Source of the DNA: Palleronia marisminoris
GTDB lineage: Bacteria; Pseudomonadota; Alphaproteobacteria; Rhodobacterales; Rhodobacteraceae
Assembly (NCBI RefSeq): GCF_900172315.1
Contig: NZ_FWFV01000001.1
Span: 248,001 to 312,000 of the forward strand
DNA length: 64,000 bases
Direction of reading: 5' to 3'
Shown: positions 6,522 to 13,810 of the stretch, piece by piece
How the letters are laid out: each line of letters opens with the position of its first letter
How positions within the stretch are numbered: position 1 is the stretch's first letter
The notes under the pieces: model-generated
What the model saw: only the letters and a program-made list of their open reading frames with translations
The model's database searches: none
What the model was told of the DNA's origin: nothing
Translations under genes and position numbers: made by a program

Positions 6522-8618
6522 TCAGTTCGCGGCGGCAACCTGCAGAAGCGGCGTGATGTTGCGCACGCTGGCCCGCCGGTTCGCGCGTTCGGCGTCCTGC
6601 GTCTGGCGCTTCAGGAAGCGCTCGCCATAGCCCTGCACCACGAGGTTCGACGTCGGCACGTCGAAATATTCGCCGAGCGCCAGGGCGACCGATTCCGCGC
6701 GCCGGTCCGACAGCGCGAGATTGTAGGCAGCATTGCCCACGGCGTCCGTGTGCCCCTCGACCAGGAAGATCGCCCGCGGATTGTCCGCGATCGTCTCGCG
6801 GATGTAGGTTCCCAGTTCACGCAGCGCTTCGGCCTGCTCGGGCCGGATCGCGGCCGAGCCGGTGTCGAAGGTGATCGCCTCGAGATCGACAGCCGGAACC
6901 TGCTGGCGCACCTCGGAGATGTTGCGCACCTGGCTGAGCGAGTAGGCCCGGTCGATATTCCTGTCGACGGCAAGGGCCTGGCGCAGAGCCGCCTCGTCGT
7001 TCAGATCGACCGTGCTCGACTGCAGGGCACTTTGGCGCAACTGGCTGACGTCCACCGGCTGGATGTTCTGGTTCAGGTCGTCGATCAGCGTGATCCGCTG
7101 GCCATCCGGCGTAACCCGGACGCGGCGCACGACGCGAAGATCGGCGTCGCGGATCGTCACGACCTGGCTACCGTCGTCGTAGCTGATCGTGGTGCGGGTC
7201 GAACCGTCGTCGAAGGTTTCGGTCTGCACCTCGGCGCCGGGCTGGCGCAGCAGGGCGTTGTCGTCCTTGATCAGCTGGTAGCCGCCGTCCTGACCCGACA
7301 CGACGACACGGTCGTTCGACGACGCGACGACGCGGCGATTGTTCAGGATCGCGCCCACGGCGAGGGCACCCGCGCCGACCAGCAGCGCCTTCTCGAGGTT
7401 GGAAAGCCCGTCATCGTCGTCATCATCGGCTTCGGACCGATCCGTCTGCGCCTGAGCCTGGGTCTGCTGGCTCGCATCACGCGAGATGGCGGAGTCGAAG
7501 TCCTCGTTGCTCGTCCGGGCCTCTTCTGCGGTCACCGTGTCGCTGGTGCTTTCGACGACCTGAGCATCTTCGGCGGCCGCGGCGGCGACCGGAGCAGTGC
7601 CGGCCAGAGCTTCGGCTTCGGCATCGGTCTGAGCGGTCGCACCGGTTTCGCCCTGGGCCTCAGTCTCGGCGCCGGTCGTTTCGGACCCATCTGCTGGGGC
7701 CTCTGCCGCGGTCGACGTCGCGTCGCCCTCCGTCGTGGCGTCGGCCTCGCCTTCGGTCATTTCGGCGTCGGTCATCGCCTCGGCTTCGTCTGCGGTCGCT
7801 TCGCTGTCGGCGGTCGCCTCGGCTTCGGCTTCGGCGTCAGCTTCGGCTCCTGCATCCACCTCAGCTTCGGCGTCGGCTCCGGCTCCGGCTCCGGCTTCAG
7901 CCGACAGCCCTTGGCGGAGTTCATCCTCGGAGGGAAGATCGCCTGCCGTATCGCCCTCGGACGTTTCGGTGGGGGGCGCAGCATCGGCCTCGGCGTCGGT
8001 CGCGGTTTCAGCTTCTGTCTCTGTCTCGGGCGCGGAACTTGCGCTAGCGTCCGGTGCGTCGTTCGCAAGACCTTCCTGGAGTTCGCTTTCCGAGGGCATC
8101 TCCTCGTCCACAACCGGCTCCGAAGGCAGTTCCTCTTCCACAGCCGATTCCGGAGAATCCTGGGCTTGGGGCGCTTCTGGCTCGGCGTCTGCCGGCATCT
8201 CGGTCACAGGCTCGTCCTCAACCGGAGCGGTGGTCTCGGGCTCGGCCGGAGCTTCGGGCGCTGCGCTCTCATCGGGGGCGTCCATCGCTTCGGACGGCTC
8301 GGACGCGGTCGCCTCCGCTTCGACATCGGTATCAGCAGAGGCCTCAGCCTCGGCAGGCGCCGCCGGAGTCTCAGGTGCAGCCTCGCCCGAGGCTTCTGCT
8401 GCGATACCGGCCTCGATGTCCTCGGGGGTTACGCCCTGACTCGTTGCATCGTCGGTCGCTGCTCGGCACTCGTCCGAGCCCGTATCAAGCGCGCAGGCTT
8501 CCACGGCCCGGTCGAGCGCCTGGCGCCCGTCGGCCTCGGCCTGCGCCAGAGCGGGCAGCGGCACCGCCAAGTTGACGCTGGCGAGCAGCGCCGTCGTGGC
8601 TTTCAAAGTTCGTTTCAT
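6522..8618 (-). CDS. OmpA-family outer-membrane protein with a long acidic low-complexity region
   Basis: A 698-residue exported protein. The start at 8618 gives a clear signal peptide (MKRTLKATTALLASVNL ... ALAQA). The longer open frame upstream would put 37 non-signal residues in front. About residues 80-390 are low-complexity Ala/Glu/Asp/Thr, with blocks such as EAEAEAT and repeated ETETEAE. Then come a short hydrophobic segment (ALLVGAGALAVGAIL), a domain with repeated TTISYDDGSQ-like strands, and a C-terminal OmpA/MotB peptidoglycan-binding domain (ITFDTGSAAI, EGHTDAVGN, LSDRRAESV, VQGYGERF). It probably tethers the envelope to peptidoglycan. The low-complexity part is unstable in length by nature and may vary between strains. 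Confidence 0.87.
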   Translation of the reverse strand: MKRTLKATTALLASVNLAVPLPALAQAEADGRQALDRAVEACALDTGSDECRAATDDATSQGVTPEDIEAGIAAEASGEAAPETPAAPAEAEASADTDVEAEATASEPSEAMDAPDESAAPEAPAEPETTAPVEDEPVTEMPADAEPEAPQAQDSPESAVEEELPSEPVVDEEMPSESELQEGLANDAPDASASSAPETETEAETATDAEADAAPPTETSEGDTAGDLPSEDELRQGLSAEAGAGAGADAEAEVDAGAEADAEAEAEATADSEATADEAEAMTDAEMTEGEADATTEGDATSTAAEAPADGSETTGAETEAQGETGATAQTDAEAEALAGTAPVAAAAAEDAQVVESTSDTVTAEEARTSNEDFDSAISRDASQQTQAQAQTDRSEADDDDDDGLSNLEKALLVGAGALAVGAILNNRRVVASSNDRVVVSGQDGGYQLIKDDNALLRQPGAEVQTETFDDGSTRTTISYDDGSQVVTIRDADLRVVRRVRVTPDGQRITLIDDLNQNIQPVDVSQLRQSALQSSTVDLNDEAALRQALAVDRNIDRAYSLSQVRNISEVRQQVPAVDLEAITFDTGSAAIRPEQAEALRELGTYIRETIADNPRAIFLVEGHTDAVGNAAYNLALSDRRAESVALALGEYFDVPTSNLVVQGYGERFLKRQTQDAERANRRASVRNITPLLQVAAAN

Positions 8619-8765
8619 CCCTGGGTTCCTCCGAAACAATGTGGGTGGAGAACAAGTGGATGCGCCCGGCGTTCCCAACACCCCCCTGTTATCGCATATC
8701 AACGGGCGGAAAGGCGCTAGCAGCCGCATTTGCCACGAGCTCGTGGCATGACCGGCCGCATGCGT

Positions 8766-9731
8766 TCAGGGGGCCAGAAACGTCACTCCGGGCATCGACG
8801 CGATGCGCCCAAGATCCTCTTCGTAGCGACGGGTCAGCGTGTCGATCGCAGCGTCCGAAAGTCCCGAGGGCGTCAGCGGCTCCTCGATCTCGGCCGGCCG
8901 GGCGGTCCGGTCGAGGAAGATCTCGAGCACGCGCGCGGCCTGTCGGTCGTCCCTGGGCGGCATTTGCGCGACGTAGGCATCGAAGGCGGCACACCCTTCG
9001 TCCGTCAAGATCGAGCGAGCGACGTCGAACCGGCCGGTCATCGCGTGATCCGGCGCGACCCCGGCCGCCGCGCGGAGCACATCGCCCCAGACGAGGGGCG
9101 TATCCTCGTTGGCCCAGACGGTGATCGGTACGTCCGGCGTCGCGTCGCGTATCCGGGCGATCATATCGGACCAGCGAAAGCGGGACATGTCGATCCGCTC
9201 CGCGAAGTCATCGAAGCTGCCGCCGTCATCCACCCGCCGGTAAAGGTCGGCCAGGAACGTCACCGGGTTCTTCACGGCGCAGAGGAACTCGATCCTGTTG
9301 TCGGGAAAGAGGTTATGCAAATCCAGCGCCTTGCGCCCCGCCTGCGGATAGAGCGTGCCGTCGGCGCAGATCCGGTCAGGCGCACCGAGGAAGCTGTCGT
9401 AGCTCAGCACCAACCGTTCGACCCGCGTTGTGCCGATCAGGCGGCGGAACAGCTCTTCCTGATCGGCCAGCCCGGCACGCGCGCCCTTCAGGCGCTGGGT
9501 GGTGAACTCGCGCAGGATCGAGGTGAAGAACCGCCGACGCGGCACGGCGATGTTCATCCCTTCAAGCATCCCCTTGTCCCGCCTGAGCGACCAGATCAGC
9601 TTCTCGTCATCCGTGCAGTGCACGCCCAGGTGCAGGACGATCCCGGTGTCGGGGTCACTGTAGCGCCGGGCGCCGACTGCCGCGGGCGGATCTTGGTGGG
9701 CCACGGGGATGCTCCCTTCGCTGGGGTTCAT
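8766..9731 (-). CDS. Hypothetical protein next to a glycan cluster (sulfotransferase-like?)
   Basis: A 321-residue soluble protein. The start at 9731 is chosen because the 26 residues before it are very basic and poorly coding. No catalytic motif is certain. The central part (DLHNLFPDNRIEFLCAVKNPVTFLADLYRR) resembles the second conserved region of sulfotransferase-fold proteins (R-x-P or N-P before a trafficking helix), but no PAPS-binding GxxKxGT loop is seen. It is read divergently from the hydrolase-like gene at 9878. The surroundings suggest a role in surface glycan modification, which is inference. Confidence 0.7.
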   Translation of the reverse strand: MNPSEGSIPVAHQDPPAAVGARRYSDPDTGIVLHLGVHCTDDEKLIWSLRRDKGMLEGMNIAVPRRRFFTSILREFTTQRLKGARAGLADQEELFRRLIGTTRVERLVLSYDSFLGAPDRICADGTLYPQAGRKALDLHNLFPDNRIEFLCAVKNPVTFLADLYRRVDDGGSFDDFAERIDMSRFRWSDMIARIRDATPDVPITVWANEDTPLVWGDVLRAAAGVAPDHAMTGRFDVARSILTDEGCAAFDAYVAQMPPRDDRQAARVLEIFLDRTARPAEIEEPLTPSGLSDAAIDTLTRRYEEDLGRIASMPGVTFLAP

Positions 9732-9877
9732 AGGGTATCCGCGCGCACGGCCCGCAACAACACGACCGGTGAAATTCCGGTGGTCACGGTTAATCCTTCG
9801 CCATGGCATCCCGCTTCCTTAATCTCGACACGGGATCTACGTAGTCACAGCCGAACAGGTGACGGGTGGAGCGCTGG

Positions 9878-10843
9878 ATGAACGAAATGGTCGAGCACGA
9901 TCTCGAGCGGCCAGGGACGGTAGAGGATCTGCACGACGCTCTTGCAGACCTTGCCGGGTCGCGCGGTTCGGTGCGGACGCTCGACTCCGACCATTTCGTC
10001 ACCTTCGTCCCCCGGGGAGCGACGCTTCTGGTCACTTTCGAAGAAACCGGGCGCACGCTCGCGCGCGACAGCGGGGTCCCGATCTCGGCCGATTTCGCCG
10101 ACGACAAGAACTGGTCCATCCTCCACGTCGCGGCCAGGCGCCGCAGCTGGTTCCGCAGCGAAGCGATGTTCTCGTATTTCGACGAACTCGCCGACGATGT
10201 GTTCTTCGACGAATACGACCGGGTGATCTTCTACGGCGCCGGTCCCGGCGGCTTTGCGGCGGCAACCTACTCGGTCACGGCGCCCGGTGCGCGGGTCATT
10301 CTGGTCGAACCGCTGGCCACGGTCGACCGCAGCCGCGCCGGCTGGGACAGCCGGTTCTATCAGCAGCTTCTGTCCCGACCGGGCCCGCGCTACCCCTACG
10401 CCCCAGACATGATCGAAGCCGCCGAAGCCGCGTTCCTGCTCTACGACCCGTCGCGGGCGCTGGACCACGTCCATGCCAGCCTCTTCGCCGGAAGCAACGT
10501 GACCCACCTGCGGGCAAACAACCTCACCACGCCGAAGGACGGCCCGCTCGAGACGACATTGGAAGAAATCGGCGCCTTGCACCCGATGATCGAAGGGTTG
10601 GGCTCGGGGCGCCTGGGGCATGTCGACATCTACCGTTTGCTGCGCGCCCGACGCGATCACATGCCTTTCCTCACGCGCACGCTGCGCCGGTCCGGGCGCC
10701 GCAACTCCGCGTTCCTGACGGCGGTCCTATGCCGATATGTCACCGCGCGCCGCAACTCGCCGCCCTTCCAGAAGCACCTCAAGGCTGCGCTTCGGCAGAT
10801 GGAAGCCGAGGGCGCCCTGCCCGGCACGTTCGGAGCTGTCTGA
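9878..10843 (+). CDS. Alpha/beta-hydrolase-like protein lacking the catalytic Ser and His
   Basis: A 321-residue protein. The ATG at 9878 is preferred over the upstream GTG (9866) because GGTGGAG lies just before it. From about residue 85 to the end it aligns by eye with residues 240-430 of the protein at 10863-12242. FDEYDRVIFYGAGPGGFAAA here corresponds to FDRFSRVIFYGASMGGYGAA there, so the nucleophile Ser is Gly122. The His of LLGHRLGSS is also gone, while the acid in LLYDP is kept. It is therefore probably a non-catalytic binding protein. Related roseobacter proteins are sometimes labelled PAPS reductase, which nothing in this sequence supports. Confidence 0.78.
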   Translation: MNEMVEHDLERPGTVEDLHDALADLAGSRGSVRTLDSDHFVTFVPRGATLLVTFEETGRTLARDSGVPISADFADDKNWSILHVAARRRSWFRSEAMFSYFDELADDVFFDEYDRVIFYGAGPGGFAAATYSVTAPGARVILVEPLATVDRSRAGWDSRFYQQLLSRPGPRYPYAPDMIEAAEAAFLLYDPSRALDHVHASLFAGSNVTHLRANNLTTPKDGPLETTLEEIGALHPMIEGLGSGRLGHVDIYRLLRARRDHMPFLTRTLRRSGRRNSAFLTAVLCRYVTARRNSPPFQKHLKAALRQMEAEGALPGTFGAV

Positions 10844-10862: not shown

Positions 10863-12242
10863 TCAGGCAAGGTTCTTCAGCTGCCGGGCGATCCCGGACA
10901 GCGCCTTGTCCTCGCGCCGCGCGAGCACGTGATTGCAGACCTTCAACGCCAGCTCCGGGTGCCCCCGCTCGACCGCCTGATGCACGAGCTCGCGCTGATA
11001 TCGGGGTAGATCGCGTCGCTTGCGGAGCAGTCGGTAGAAGCTCTGCCGGTCGAGACGCTCTTCGATCGCCGCGACCGTGATCTCCTTGAGCGCGCCCATC
11101 TGGTGCAGCGATGAACCCAGCCGGTGCCCCAGCAGCGGACAAGGCCAGTGTAGGACGTTCCTGCCCGTAAATCGTGCGGCATGTGCAGCATCCGCGGCGA
11201 CATAGGGATCATAGAGAAGATGCACGGCCTTCGCAGTCCGCGACGCGGCGGCTGCATCACCGAACGGGCCGGAAAAATTGCGCCCCCAGGCGGTCTTGTA
11301 GCGCATCTCCCAAGGCACGACTGCCTTGTCGAGCGTCGATTGCGGAGAGGTCACGAACACCGTCGATCCCGGCGCCGCGGCCGAGAATGCCGCCGCGCCG
11401 TAGCCGCCCATGCTGGCACCGTAGAAGATCACGCGGGAGAAACGGTCGAAAAACCGGTCGCGCGACAGGCGCAGGAACGCCTCGTCCACCGCGACGTCGC
11501 GGAACCACGTCCAGCCGTCGGCCATGACACCCAGCATCGACCAGCCCTGCGCCTCGATGAAGGAATAGCCCCAGGGGCGACGCTCGTCGCGTTTCTCCAT
11601 CGCGATGTCGAGGTTGTCGAAGGTCACGACCAACGTTTCGGACCGGTCCTGGAACAGCATCGAGTGCTCGCCCAAATCGTGGAAGAACCCCCGAGCCCCT
11701 GCCAGATCGCGGGCAATCGCGGACCATTGCCCGGAATTGCTGCTGGGCGACGTTGCCGACATGATCGCGCGGCCCGGGCGGTGCTGTGCCGGCTCGATCA
11801 GCGTATGGCAGGTGCCGAACCCGTTGAGGAACGGGTAACTGCCGGAGCCGAGCTTGATGTCGAGGACCAAGCGGCTCTGGCCATGCAGCGCCGCCTGAAG
11901 GAACCCTCGCAGGTGCTTGATCTTCAAAGATGATCCAAATCCACCCAGCGTCACGATCACATCATACGGATGCACCTTCTTGTCGGGGCTGGTCCCGCGG
12001 ATCGCCTCCGGGACGCCACCGCACCCAGCAACCGCGGCACGGTAGGCCGCGAGATCGCCATCGCTCACCGCCTCGCGCTCTCCTTCGGCCCCGATGGCGA
12101 CGAGATCGACCTTGCAGCCGAACCGCTTTTGCAGAGCCGCCGTCAGTTCTGGTGTCGTACCGTTCAGGTCCGCCACCCGGGCGACCTCGTCGCGATCCAG
12201 CGCGCCAAGGATGTCACGGATTTCGTCCTGAGTGAGCCTCAT
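10863..12242 (-). CDS. Degenerate methyltransferase domain fused to an alpha/beta hydrolase
   Basis: A 459-residue protein, last of a three-gene operon (start overlaps the previous stop by 4 bases). Residues 20-150 align with the methyltransferase domain of the upstream gene: ARVADLNGTTP stands where that protein has ARIADIGCGYG, and VDLVAIG where it has VLLIDIE. The SAM loop and the acidic ribose-binding residue are thus lost, while RLVLDIKLGSG and FGTCHTL match its C-terminal part. Residues 200-459 are an alpha/beta hydrolase with an intact nucleophile elbow GASMGGYG (Ser277), Asp345 (LLYDP) and His373 (LLGHR). An esterase or acyl-transfer role on glycans is possible but unproven. Confidence 0.78.
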   Translation of the reverse strand: MRLTQDEIRDILGALDRDEVARVADLNGTTPELTAALQKRFGCKVDLVAIGAEGEREAVSDGDLAAYRAAVAGCGGVPEAIRGTSPDKKVHPYDVIVTLGGFGSSLKIKHLRGFLQAALHGQSRLVLDIKLGSGSYPFLNGFGTCHTLIEPAQHRPGRAIMSATSPSSNSGQWSAIARDLAGARGFFHDLGEHSMLFQDRSETLVVTFDNLDIAMEKRDERRPWGYSFIEAQGWSMLGVMADGWTWFRDVAVDEAFLRLSRDRFFDRFSRVIFYGASMGGYGAAAFSAAAPGSTVFVTSPQSTLDKAVVPWEMRYKTAWGRNFSGPFGDAAAASRTAKAVHLLYDPYVAADAAHAARFTGRNVLHWPCPLLGHRLGSSLHQMGALKEITVAAIEERLDRQSFYRLLRKRRDLPRYQRELVHQAVERGHPELALKVCNHVLARREDKALSGIARQLKNLA

Positions 12243-13810
12243 GCGTTAACCGCCTCTTTCCGCACGAGGATCCCAGCGCTCTTGCCAGTCTTCTCCAACA
12301 TCTGGACCGCACCGAAGCGGCGCATGTAGGCGATCCCACCCGAGCCCTTCCGGATGTCCATCGCGATCCGCCCGCCCGGCCTCACTTGCCGGCCGAAGAA
12401 TGTCTCGTAAGTCTTTGCTGGGTAATGGAATCCGCAGGACAAAAGGGAGACCGCGAGATCTACCGTCCCCGCGTTGTCCAAAGGCACCTTGTTCGGGTTC
12501 AGCGTGATTATGCGCTCCGCCGGTACGCCGTTGGCTTCGAGAAACGCGCGCGCGGTGGACAGGTCGGCGTAGCCCGCCCCGCGATCTGCATAGCCCATAT
12601 GCCGGTCCGCGGCGCTTTCGATGTCGATCAGTAGCACCTCGGCCTCGTAGCGGTGATAGAGCACCAGACTCGCCAAACCGTATCCGCAGCCGATATCGGC
12701 GATCCGCGCCGGCGGATCCTCGTCCACCGCGTCCACGAAGCGCTCGCATTCCGTCCGCAGCCGTTCCAGCGCGATCGACAACACGGTCTCGCGATGCCTT
12801 CGCGCCAGGTCCAGAAGCGGGGCATCGTCCCCCGTGGCCCATGCACGGACGGCGGACCCGGAGTCGATCACCTCCGACCGCTGCAGGATCAGGTTGGCCA
12901 CGTCCTGGTCCGTGAACATCGAGAAGTCGATCGCGTCGGGCAGGTCGGCCCGCCGTTTGGCCTTGCTGGGCGGACGGTAGCGGATCAGGTGGCGCGTGGG
13001 CTCAGGGTCGATCCCGTGCCGCTTCAGTAGACCCGAAAGCCAGGACCCGGACATCGGTTGCCCCCCGAACTTGGCCAGCACGTTTCGGCACCGCCGCCCC
13101 CAGAGATGCACCGACAGCGTCTCTTCCCCGATCCGGGCCGCCACCTCCTCGCGGCGTCTGTCCTTCAGCATGTGGTGCGTGTCGTCGAACGGCACCGGGT
13201 AGAGCACCTGCGGCGCCTTCGCATGAGCGATCTCGCCGGTTTCGCGCAGCATATGCGTCAGCAGATCGGGGCCCAGCACGCCCCAGGGCAGTTCGGAAAC
13301 ATGGACGCCCCGCCCCGCAGCCTTGGCCCTGCTCAGCTCATCCTGCCGCGCCGCGGGCAGCCAAGGCGGGATCGGACAGGGGTCGGCGGCAAACTCGGAC
13401 ATCCGGCGCAACGTCTCGGACCCTTTGGGCAGGCGCAGAACGCCGTTGTTGACCTGCGCCACGTCGCCCGCGATCCAGCCATAGAGCGGAGCGTCAGAGG
13501 CCACCTCCCAAGGGCGCACGCAATAGGCGTCGGCATCGGCCCAGATCAGGTCCGTCCCTTCCATCAGGTGCAGGCGGAAGATGTCGGCGTGATAGGCGGG
13601 CGAGCCGGTCCTGGCGTGCCGCAGGATGTTCTCGGCGGGCAAGATGTCGCTCGCCGGAGCGATCCGCACGCCGTCGGGCACGCCGGCCACGTCCTCGTAG
13701 GTGAATAGTGTCACCGCGTGCCCCGCATCCACGAAGCTTTTGAAGCAGAGCTGTTCGAGCCATGTCAGCTGCGCGCCAACCCAGAGCGAGCCGATTTCAG
13801 GAAGTGTCAT
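12239..13810 (-). CDS. Bifunctional glycosyltransferase (DxD, capsule type) / SAM methyltransferase
   Basis: A 523-residue two-domain protein. Residues 1-260 resemble the DxD sugar transferases of the capsular/OCH1-like type: SLWVGAQLTWLEQLC at the start, AYHADIFRLHLM, then DLIWADADAYCVRPW with D92-x-D94 as the metal/nucleotide-sugar site. Residues 340-520 are a class I methyltransferase with motif I IADIGCGYG (372-378) and acidic LLIDIE. The gene overlaps its upstream neighbour by 4 bases and its downstream neighbour by 4 bases. The fusion suggests that a sugar is transferred and then methylated, probably in capsule or LPS assembly. The substrates are unknown. Confidence 0.84.
   Translation of the reverse strand: MTLPEIGSLWVGAQLTWLEQLCFKSFVDAGHAVTLFTYEDVAGVPDGVRIAPASDILPAENILRHARTGSPAYHADIFRLHLMEGTDLIWADADAYCVRPWEVASDAPLYGWIAGDVAQVNNGVLRLPKGSETLRRMSEFAADPCPIPPWLPAARQDELSRAKAAGRGVHVSELPWGVLGPDLLTHMLRETGEIAHAKAPQVLYPVPFDDTHHMLKDRRREEVAARIGEETLSVHLWGRRCRNVLAKFGGQPMSGSWLSGLLKRHGIDPEPTRHLIRYRPPSKAKRRADLPDAIDFSMFTDQDVANLILQRSEVIDSGSAVRAWATGDDAPLLDLARRHRETVLSIALERLRTECERFVDAVDEDPPARIADIGCGYGLASLVLYHRYEAEVLLIDIESAADRHMGYADRGAGYADLSTARAFLEANGVPAERIITLNPNKVPLDNAGTVDLAVSLLSCGFHYPAKTYETFFGRQVRPGGRIAMDIRKGSGGIAYMRRFGAVQMLEKTGKSAGILVRKEAVNA

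Follow-up and report, generated by a model that had tools for sequence, protein, structure and literature searches.

A conserved pseudo-methyltransferase domain fused to an alpha/beta-hydrolase at a putative glycan-modifying locus of Palleronia marisminoris

A 64,000-nucleotide stretch of the genome of the marine bacterium Palleronia marisminoris (NCBI RefSeq assembly GCF_900172315.1, contig NZ_FWFV01000001.1, forward-strand positions 248,001 to 312,000), referred to here as the window, encodes a real and conserved pseudo-methyltransferase within a probable glycan-modifying enzyme. The enzyme, P0001 (10863-12242, minus strand), consists of a degenerate methyltransferase domain (pMT) followed by an alpha/beta-hydrolase domain (ABH), and the adjacent gene, P0002 (12239-13810, minus strand), encodes a glycosyltransferase joined to an active-type methyltransferase domain (aMT). 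The role of the pMT and the catalysis of the ABH, as described below, are predicted from sequence comparison and structural models. An initial annotation of the window had described the two genes as an active methyltransferase and its dead copy, and had proposed that the two pair and direct a hydrolase to the same glycan.

The pMT was delimited to residues 1-166 of P0001 (11745..12242, minus strand) by the structural model, fold match, alignment and profile comparison. Where motif I of the aMT reads ADIGCGYG in the translated sequence (residues 371-378; 12677..12700, minus strand), the alignment of relatives places ADLNGTTP in the pMT (residues 24-31; 12150..12173, minus strand), with Asn27 and Thr29 giving NGT for GxG, and Ala49 occupies the column of D396, the acid within LLIDIE of P0002; both reading frames bear out these motifs as initially annotated. 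The P0002 domain was recovered when P0001 was searched against its own genome (E 6.5e-4). Furthermore, profile-profile comparison confirmed the proposed homology, matching the pMT family (60 rows) to the active family with a probability of 99.6% and an E-value of 2.3e-24 over 155 columns; seven control pairs gave probabilities of at most 2.3%, ruling out a chance resemblance. An AlphaFold model of P0001 built with 57 sequences (mean predicted local distance difference test score [pLDDT] 89.7) retained the whole methyltransferase core, and residues 1-166 fell among the class I S-adenosylmethionine (SAM) methyltransferases, with TleD as the best match (Z 13.1, root-mean-square deviation [rmsd] 3.5, 153 aligned). 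The non-Rossmann outcome considered in the initial annotation was not seen: the pMT has a Rossmann-like methyltransferase fold and lacks the glycine-rich motif I and the beta-2 acid. Identity to the Palleronia abyssalis orthologue was 64.5% for the pMT, 60.8% for the aMT and 81.7% for the ABH. The N-terminal domain of P0001 is a true but degenerate methyltransferase whose reading frame has been maintained by constraint.

On a joint alignment, loss of the SAM site is a graded trait of the family. For motif I, the GxG was present in 5/60 pMT rows, in all 25 glycosyltransferase-linked aMT rows and in 26/27 solo rows, and the corresponding counts for the beta-2 acid were 26/60, 25/25 and 27/27; each of the 25 linked aMT rows combined GxGx[GA] with the acid. 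The acid lost according to the initial annotation is thus missing from P0001 and its subclade and still present in a part of the wider family. None of the five GxG-bearing pMT rows had an aMT in the surrounding sequence, and the survey of homologues returned no close relative with an intact SAM loop. The loss is common to the whole P0001 subclade, which rules out a recent mutation in this strain. The GSG after beta-5, in contrast to motif I, was kept in 59, 57 and 60 of the 60 pMT rows (Ser133 in 57/60, Gly134 in 60/60) and in 24, 24 and 23 of the 25 glycosyltransferase-linked aMT rows, against 5, 4 and 3 of the 27 solo methyltransferases. The cofactor side of the pMT therefore seems to have decayed, while the loop that it has in common with the locus's own aMT persisted. 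In this fold the loop after beta-5 sits at the C-terminal strand ends, close to the active site, and it is accordingly read here as a putative acceptor- or partner-binding element. One fused row, L087, retains only part of the usual pMT motifs.

In a tree of 103 domains, a branch supported at 100/100 set 56 pMT rows apart from 47 active rows, and P0002-type aMT grouped with the solo methyltransferases. This separation rules out a recent local duplication of the aMT into the pMT; the supposed dead copy is indeed a degenerate methyltransferase kept in frame, of a separate lineage rather than a duplicate of its neighbour. Because the tree is unrooted, it does not order the pMT and active forms in time. 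The short L141 and the near-identical L017, L018, L019 and L023 were left out of the tree, and L021, cut by a contig end, was excluded from the pMT counts.

The association with a glycosyltransferase extends well beyond the window. Among 58 long pMT-ABH loci, 25 had a GT32-aMT gene beside pMT-ABH, 24 encoded glycosyltransferase, pMT and ABH in one open frame, 8 had a separate glycosyltransferase (L173 also a separate aMT gene) and L021 ended at the contig end. The one-polypeptide fusion indicates that the three activities belong together. An aMT gene lay in the stretch for three of the 24 fused loci (L158, L163 and L165). Nine of the 58 loci are from Leisingera, so the loci are not independent, and L028, counted as solo in its cut locus, is joined to a glycosyltransferase in the longer locus L174. 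As separate observations, L169 carries tandem frames, with a glycosyltransferase-pMT frame without ABH (6957-8420) followed by a glycosyltransferase-pMT-ABH frame (8234-10660), and a stop within the glycosyltransferase part breaks the glycosyltransferase-pMT-ABH frame of L157 (6948-10217, genome G162). In L117 (G001:C149:88000-104000), from the same genus as the window, three ABH frames, two of them with the full active site, surround a GT32 gene without any pMT; this arrangement may represent a simpler version of the locus's machinery.

The co-occurrence of the two methyltransferases was evaluated in 394 genomes of the window's family. pMT-ABH was found in 40 genomes (E 1e-100) and aMT in 43 (E 1e-8), the latter being 47 minus G034, G272, G409 and G424, whose sole match was the pMT domain and which were removed by hand. 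Twenty-five of the 40 pMT-ABH genomes had an aMT, a strong co-occurrence (hypergeometric 5e-18, uncorrected for kinship). In the other 15, of which 11 are listed at 95% completeness or above, no aMT was detected by a search that scored at most eight candidates per genome and could have missed an aMT in individual genomes. At the level of single rows, 29 of the 60 pMT had an aMT in the surrounding sequence and 31 had none there. In view of these 31 rows and 15 genomes, obligate pairing is not supported, and neither is the pairing with an active copy put forward in the initial annotation, if taken as a requirement.

SAM-site residues have been lost mainly beside an aMT, as though the methylation step had been passed on. 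The beta-2 acid was retained in 2/29 pMT rows with a nearby aMT vs. 24/31 without (Fisher 2e-8), and the first glycine, Gly27, in 1/29 vs. 22/31 (Fisher 3e-8), both values ignoring kinship. In addition, a test of dependent vs. independent evolution on a midpoint-rooted FastTree tree gave p values of 0.029 for the acid and 0.007 for the first glycine. This test was chosen after the pattern had been seen, and the correlated loss is therefore taken as suggestive.

The ABH-fold domain spans residues 167-396 of P0001 (11055..11744, minus strand) and is followed by C-terminal helices, as seen in the secondary structure of the AlphaFold model (residues 397-459; 10866..11054, minus strand). Its nucleophile elbow is GASMG (GXSXG) and the order of the triad is Ser-Asp-His. 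The initial annotation was correct in calling the triad intact: Ser277, Asp345 and His373 were invariant in 57 aligned proteins, and together with Gln301 they were present in 62/62 pMT-linked ABH domains. The best fold match was Gap2 (6oyc chain B; Z 14.7, rmsd 3.2, 201 aligned), the Asp2 homologue, and the second was CsaC (6yuo; Z 14.4, rmsd 3.8, 198 aligned), the capsule O-acetyltransferase of Neisseria meningitidis serogroup A. As read from the sequence, P0001 has no obvious secretion signal; this, together with the glycosyltransferase fusion, suggests that the ABH acts where acetyl-coenzyme A is found. Sequence searches of solved structures gave nothing meaningful for P0001 or for profile A1. 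With moderate confidence, we predict that the ABH is an O-acyltransferase in preference to an esterase, and P0001 is not assigned to the CsaC or the Asp2/Gap2 family. The hydrolase of the initial annotation thus holds as an intact ABH fused to a pMT and tied to a glycosyltransferase (24/58 loci), although its reaction may instead be glycan O-acylation. The ABH family as a whole is unannotated, common in the searched family and entered as hypothetical protein in several records; its members are possibly glycan O-acyltransferases.

CsaC has a Gln at Ser+24 (Q138) beside the nucleophile, replacement of which lowers activity by ~97%, and a helper His (H201) at Asp+3 (PMC7501274). CsaC resembles the ABH in fold, in the Ser-Asp-His order and in the Gln at Ser+24, and it acts on a cell-surface polysaccharide. 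In contrast to P0001, CsaC is a stand-alone protein with a helper His at Asp+3 and no methyltransferase-like domain, and no sequence match between the two was found. Asp2 acetylates N-acetylglucosamine (GlcNAc) with a Ser-Asp-His triad and is encoded in the operon of the serine-rich repeat (SRR) adhesin and SecA2-SecY2 (PMC5578698). Asp2/Gap2, which O-acetylates a protein-bound glycan in the cytoplasm, has the ABH fold and the triad of P0001 and differs in belonging to a Gram-positive export complex. For P0001, the Asp2 family was absent from the Pfam matches at E 0.1 and no PDB sequence match was obtained, against a fold Z of 14.7.

A further ABH lies nearby. P0003 (9866..10843, plus strand) is a dead ABH paralogue with Ser277 replaced by Gly, Gln301 by Leu, His373 lost and Asp345 kept. 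The four active-site residues were kept in 9/37 solo ABHs, and 27 of 28 dead ABHs formed one group with local support of 0.997 in a FastTree tree calculated without the Ser277, Gln301 and His373 columns. The dead ABHs form an old lineage, to which P0003 belongs. Solo ABHs occurred in 18/58 long loci, and all 17 that could be classified were dead. With P0003 dead and the ABH of P0001 intact, and the pMT decayed and the aMT intact, each of the two enzyme families is represented in the region by one active and one retired member. Neither P0003 nor the one-polypeptide form of the relatives had figured in the initial annotation.

We tentatively propose, at somewhat less than an even chance, that P0001 and P0002 together make up a cytoplasmic machine for finishing glycans, each protein being one half of it and the pMT serving for docking or acceptor recognition. 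In P0002, the glycosyltransferase domain would add a sugar and the aMT would then methylate the product. The ABH of P0001 would modify the same glycan, more probably as a CsaC- or Asp2-like acyl-enzyme O-acyltransferase than as a plain esterase, and the pMT of this lineage, which would no longer bind SAM, would keep the ABH close to the glycan or to the glycosyltransferase. The unit of glycosyltransferase, pMT and ABH is widespread in the family, and the aMT, from a separate family, would have been acquired where the pMT had lost its SAM site. A longer history, possible but rather doubtful, would explain the two active/retired pairs by an ancestral glycosyltransferase-methyltransferase-acyltransferase protein whose methylation was taken over by a recruited methyltransferase; the old domain would now recognize the glycan or a partner and thereby position the acyltransferase, with a binding or regulatory role for the equally old dead ABH lineage beside the active ABH.

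Several observations weigh against this proposal. Nine rows break the acid/aMT pattern: L088 and L104 keep the acid beside an aMT, and L058, L059, L077, L091, L095, L103 and L116 have lost it with no aMT nearby. The genomes of three of these seven have an aMT relative elsewhere (G060, G061 and G222), and none was detected in the other four (G023, G252, G321 and G409). Moreover, Gly27 and the acid are often retained in pMT rows that have no aMT nearby, and some of these may still bind SAM. The function given to the GSG loop is itself a reading of its position. As for acyl transfer, Foldseek placed CsaC first, Gap2 second and an esterase third with a near-tied E-value; the best Gap2 and CsaC entries exceed esterases by only 1.3-1.6 Z, and MPT51 (13.1) and the acetyl xylan esterase-type Axe1 of Bacteroides (13.0) score level with further CsaC entries (13.2-13.3). 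Gln301, at Ser+24, is also kept in 17/28 dead ABHs and may therefore be structural, and the helper His at Asp+3 is absent from P0001, which has Val348 there and an invariant His354 at Asp+9.

An esterase or deacetylase that strips acyl groups from the glycan is accordingly an appreciable, though lesser, possibility for the ABH; esterases and acetyl xylan esterases are near in fold, and Pfam gave a weak Esterase match (E 0.096). The two top fold matches are O-acetyltransferases, however, and the CsaC-like Gln, the apparent lack of a secretion signal and the fusion to a nucleotide-sugar-type glycosyltransferase speak for acyl transfer. For the pMT, an active/inactive heterodimer with the aMT of P0002, on which methylation or the placement of the hydrolase would depend, would agree with the overlap of the two genes, the enrichment of aMT among pMT-ABH genomes (25/40 vs. 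43/394 overall), the loss of the SAM site where an aMT is present and the GSG loop common only to the pMT and the glycosyltransferase-linked aMT. We nevertheless consider it unlikely, given the 15 of 40 genomes with no aMT detected among the candidates scored, an FkbM gene that splits the two genes in L010, L011 and L015, and the loss of the aMT from the locus in L016 and L024, which lie within the aMT-bearing group and have a solo relative elsewhere in their genomes.

It is just as improbable, in our estimate, that a divergent loop lets the pMT still bind SAM, S-adenosylhomocysteine (SAH) or some other nucleotide, as an unusual active methyltransferase or a sensor. The intact fold, the family members with GxG (5/60) or the beta-2 acid (26/60) and the rows without a nearby aMT (Gly27 in 22/31, acid in 24/31) are consistent with such a ligand, but P0001 itself has Asn27, Thr29 and Ala49, and both features are gone in its subclade. 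That the pMT is an inert linker, retained for protein folding only, appears very improbable. It diverges faster than the ABH (64.5 vs. 81.7% identity) and is partly eroded in L087, yet the loop is conserved to the point of Gly134 in every row and Ser133 in 57/60, the whole core stands in the model, and solo ABHs exist without a pMT. Docking or acceptor recognition by the pMT is the role that we prefer.

No described system of this architecture was found in the literature, as judged from titles and abstract starts, in agreement with the initial annotation. METTL3-METTL14 and similar complexes are active/inactive methyltransferase pairs, and the locus likewise encodes side by side two methyltransferases of one family, one active and one cofactor-less; as points of difference, the inactive pMT also occurs where the active partner is lacking, forms fusions with an ABH and a glycosyltransferase, and lies in a glycan setting. 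Multi-domain glycan enzymes of the WbdD and WsaE types join a methyltransferase domain to other glycan-assembly activities, and we know of no pseudo-methyltransferase or ABH in them. To our knowledge, RNA-modifying complexes are the best-known setting of inactive methyltransferases, and few are known from bacterial glycan-assembly enzymes. In the pMT family, the decay of a cofactor site can be traced over 60 proteins, and natural variants occur with or without the active partner, fused or split; the role of a retired methyltransferase thereby becomes testable.

In P0002, residues 1-275 (12986..13810, minus strand) form a GT-A glycosyltransferase domain, called GT32-like. Residues 3-242 matched YeGT in fold (Z 14.1), Pfam gave a weak Gb3_synth match (E 0.046), and D92, D94, N121, N122 and G123 were invariant in 20 sequences. 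The aMT, residues 331-523 (12242..12820, minus strand), has the motif I core GCGYG, matched Methyltransf_25 at E 0.0018, under the gathering score, and matched SAM methyltransferases in fold; in the P0002 model (pLDDT 84.4) the methyltransferase part has the same element order as the pMT.

The two genes, translationally coupled according to the initial annotation, overlap in an ATGA (12239..12242, minus strand), in which the P0002 stop (12239-12241) overlaps the P0001 ATG (12240-12242). The GT2a gene, 5' of P0002 (13807..16098, minus strand), is a 763-residue frame with a Glyco_tranf_2_4/GT92-like domain and an uncertain true start; it ends at 13807, overlaps the P0002 start by four bases and is kept in related loci. 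The four-base overlaps make translational coupling of the three genes plausible here. This coupling of P0002 and P0001 is not universal, as the FkbM methyltransferase gene lies between both in L010, L011 and L015. A further candidate frame, P0005 (16095-17573, minus strand), was discarded as a gene because an amidohydrolase is encoded on the opposite strand.

GT2/GT92-like transferases lie near the locus, and the neighbours in relatives include GT2 genes, FkbM methyltransferases, a UDP-glucose/GDP-mannose dehydrogenase (L005) and a sugar-nucleotide epimerase (L016). Plasmid pP78_c of Phaeobacter inhibens carries a solo relative of the ABH, entered as hypothetical protein, with genes for a glycosyltransferase, a GT2 enzyme and an FkbM methyltransferase around it. 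This setting fits a methylated, perhaps acylated, surface polysaccharide. At E 1e-20, profile A1 matched 5/385 genomes of the class; all five belong to the window's family, and four matched over the ABH only. Another 24 genomes, from other families, gave no match. In these searches the pMT-ABH pair was confined to the window's family, one family of the Rhodobacterales, apart from one doubtful record: JAHVJD010000004.1 (L008) is titled Nocardioides marinus, carries a Leisingera-like locus and appears to be mistitled. Searches of phages gave no match to the unit, and 18 plasmid records matched, of which a single one covered 80% or more of the query; a phage-borne or widely mobile unit was rejected on these searches. 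On a Thioclava plasmid (L214, 12019-12951), an ABH relative is annotated as phosphoadenosine phosphosulfate reductase, an annotation that the ABH match does not support.

A conserved neighbour without a Pfam family, c3, lies at 8766-9809 (minus strand). Its start, HLGxxCTDxx, resembles a decayed sulfotransferase P-loop; a weak test, in which its profile was set against three sulfotransferases encoded by this genome, lent no support (probability 0.1), and Pfam returned nothing useful. The c3 profile matched 25/60 of the relatives' genomes, and c3 was present in 26/58 pMT-ABH loci.

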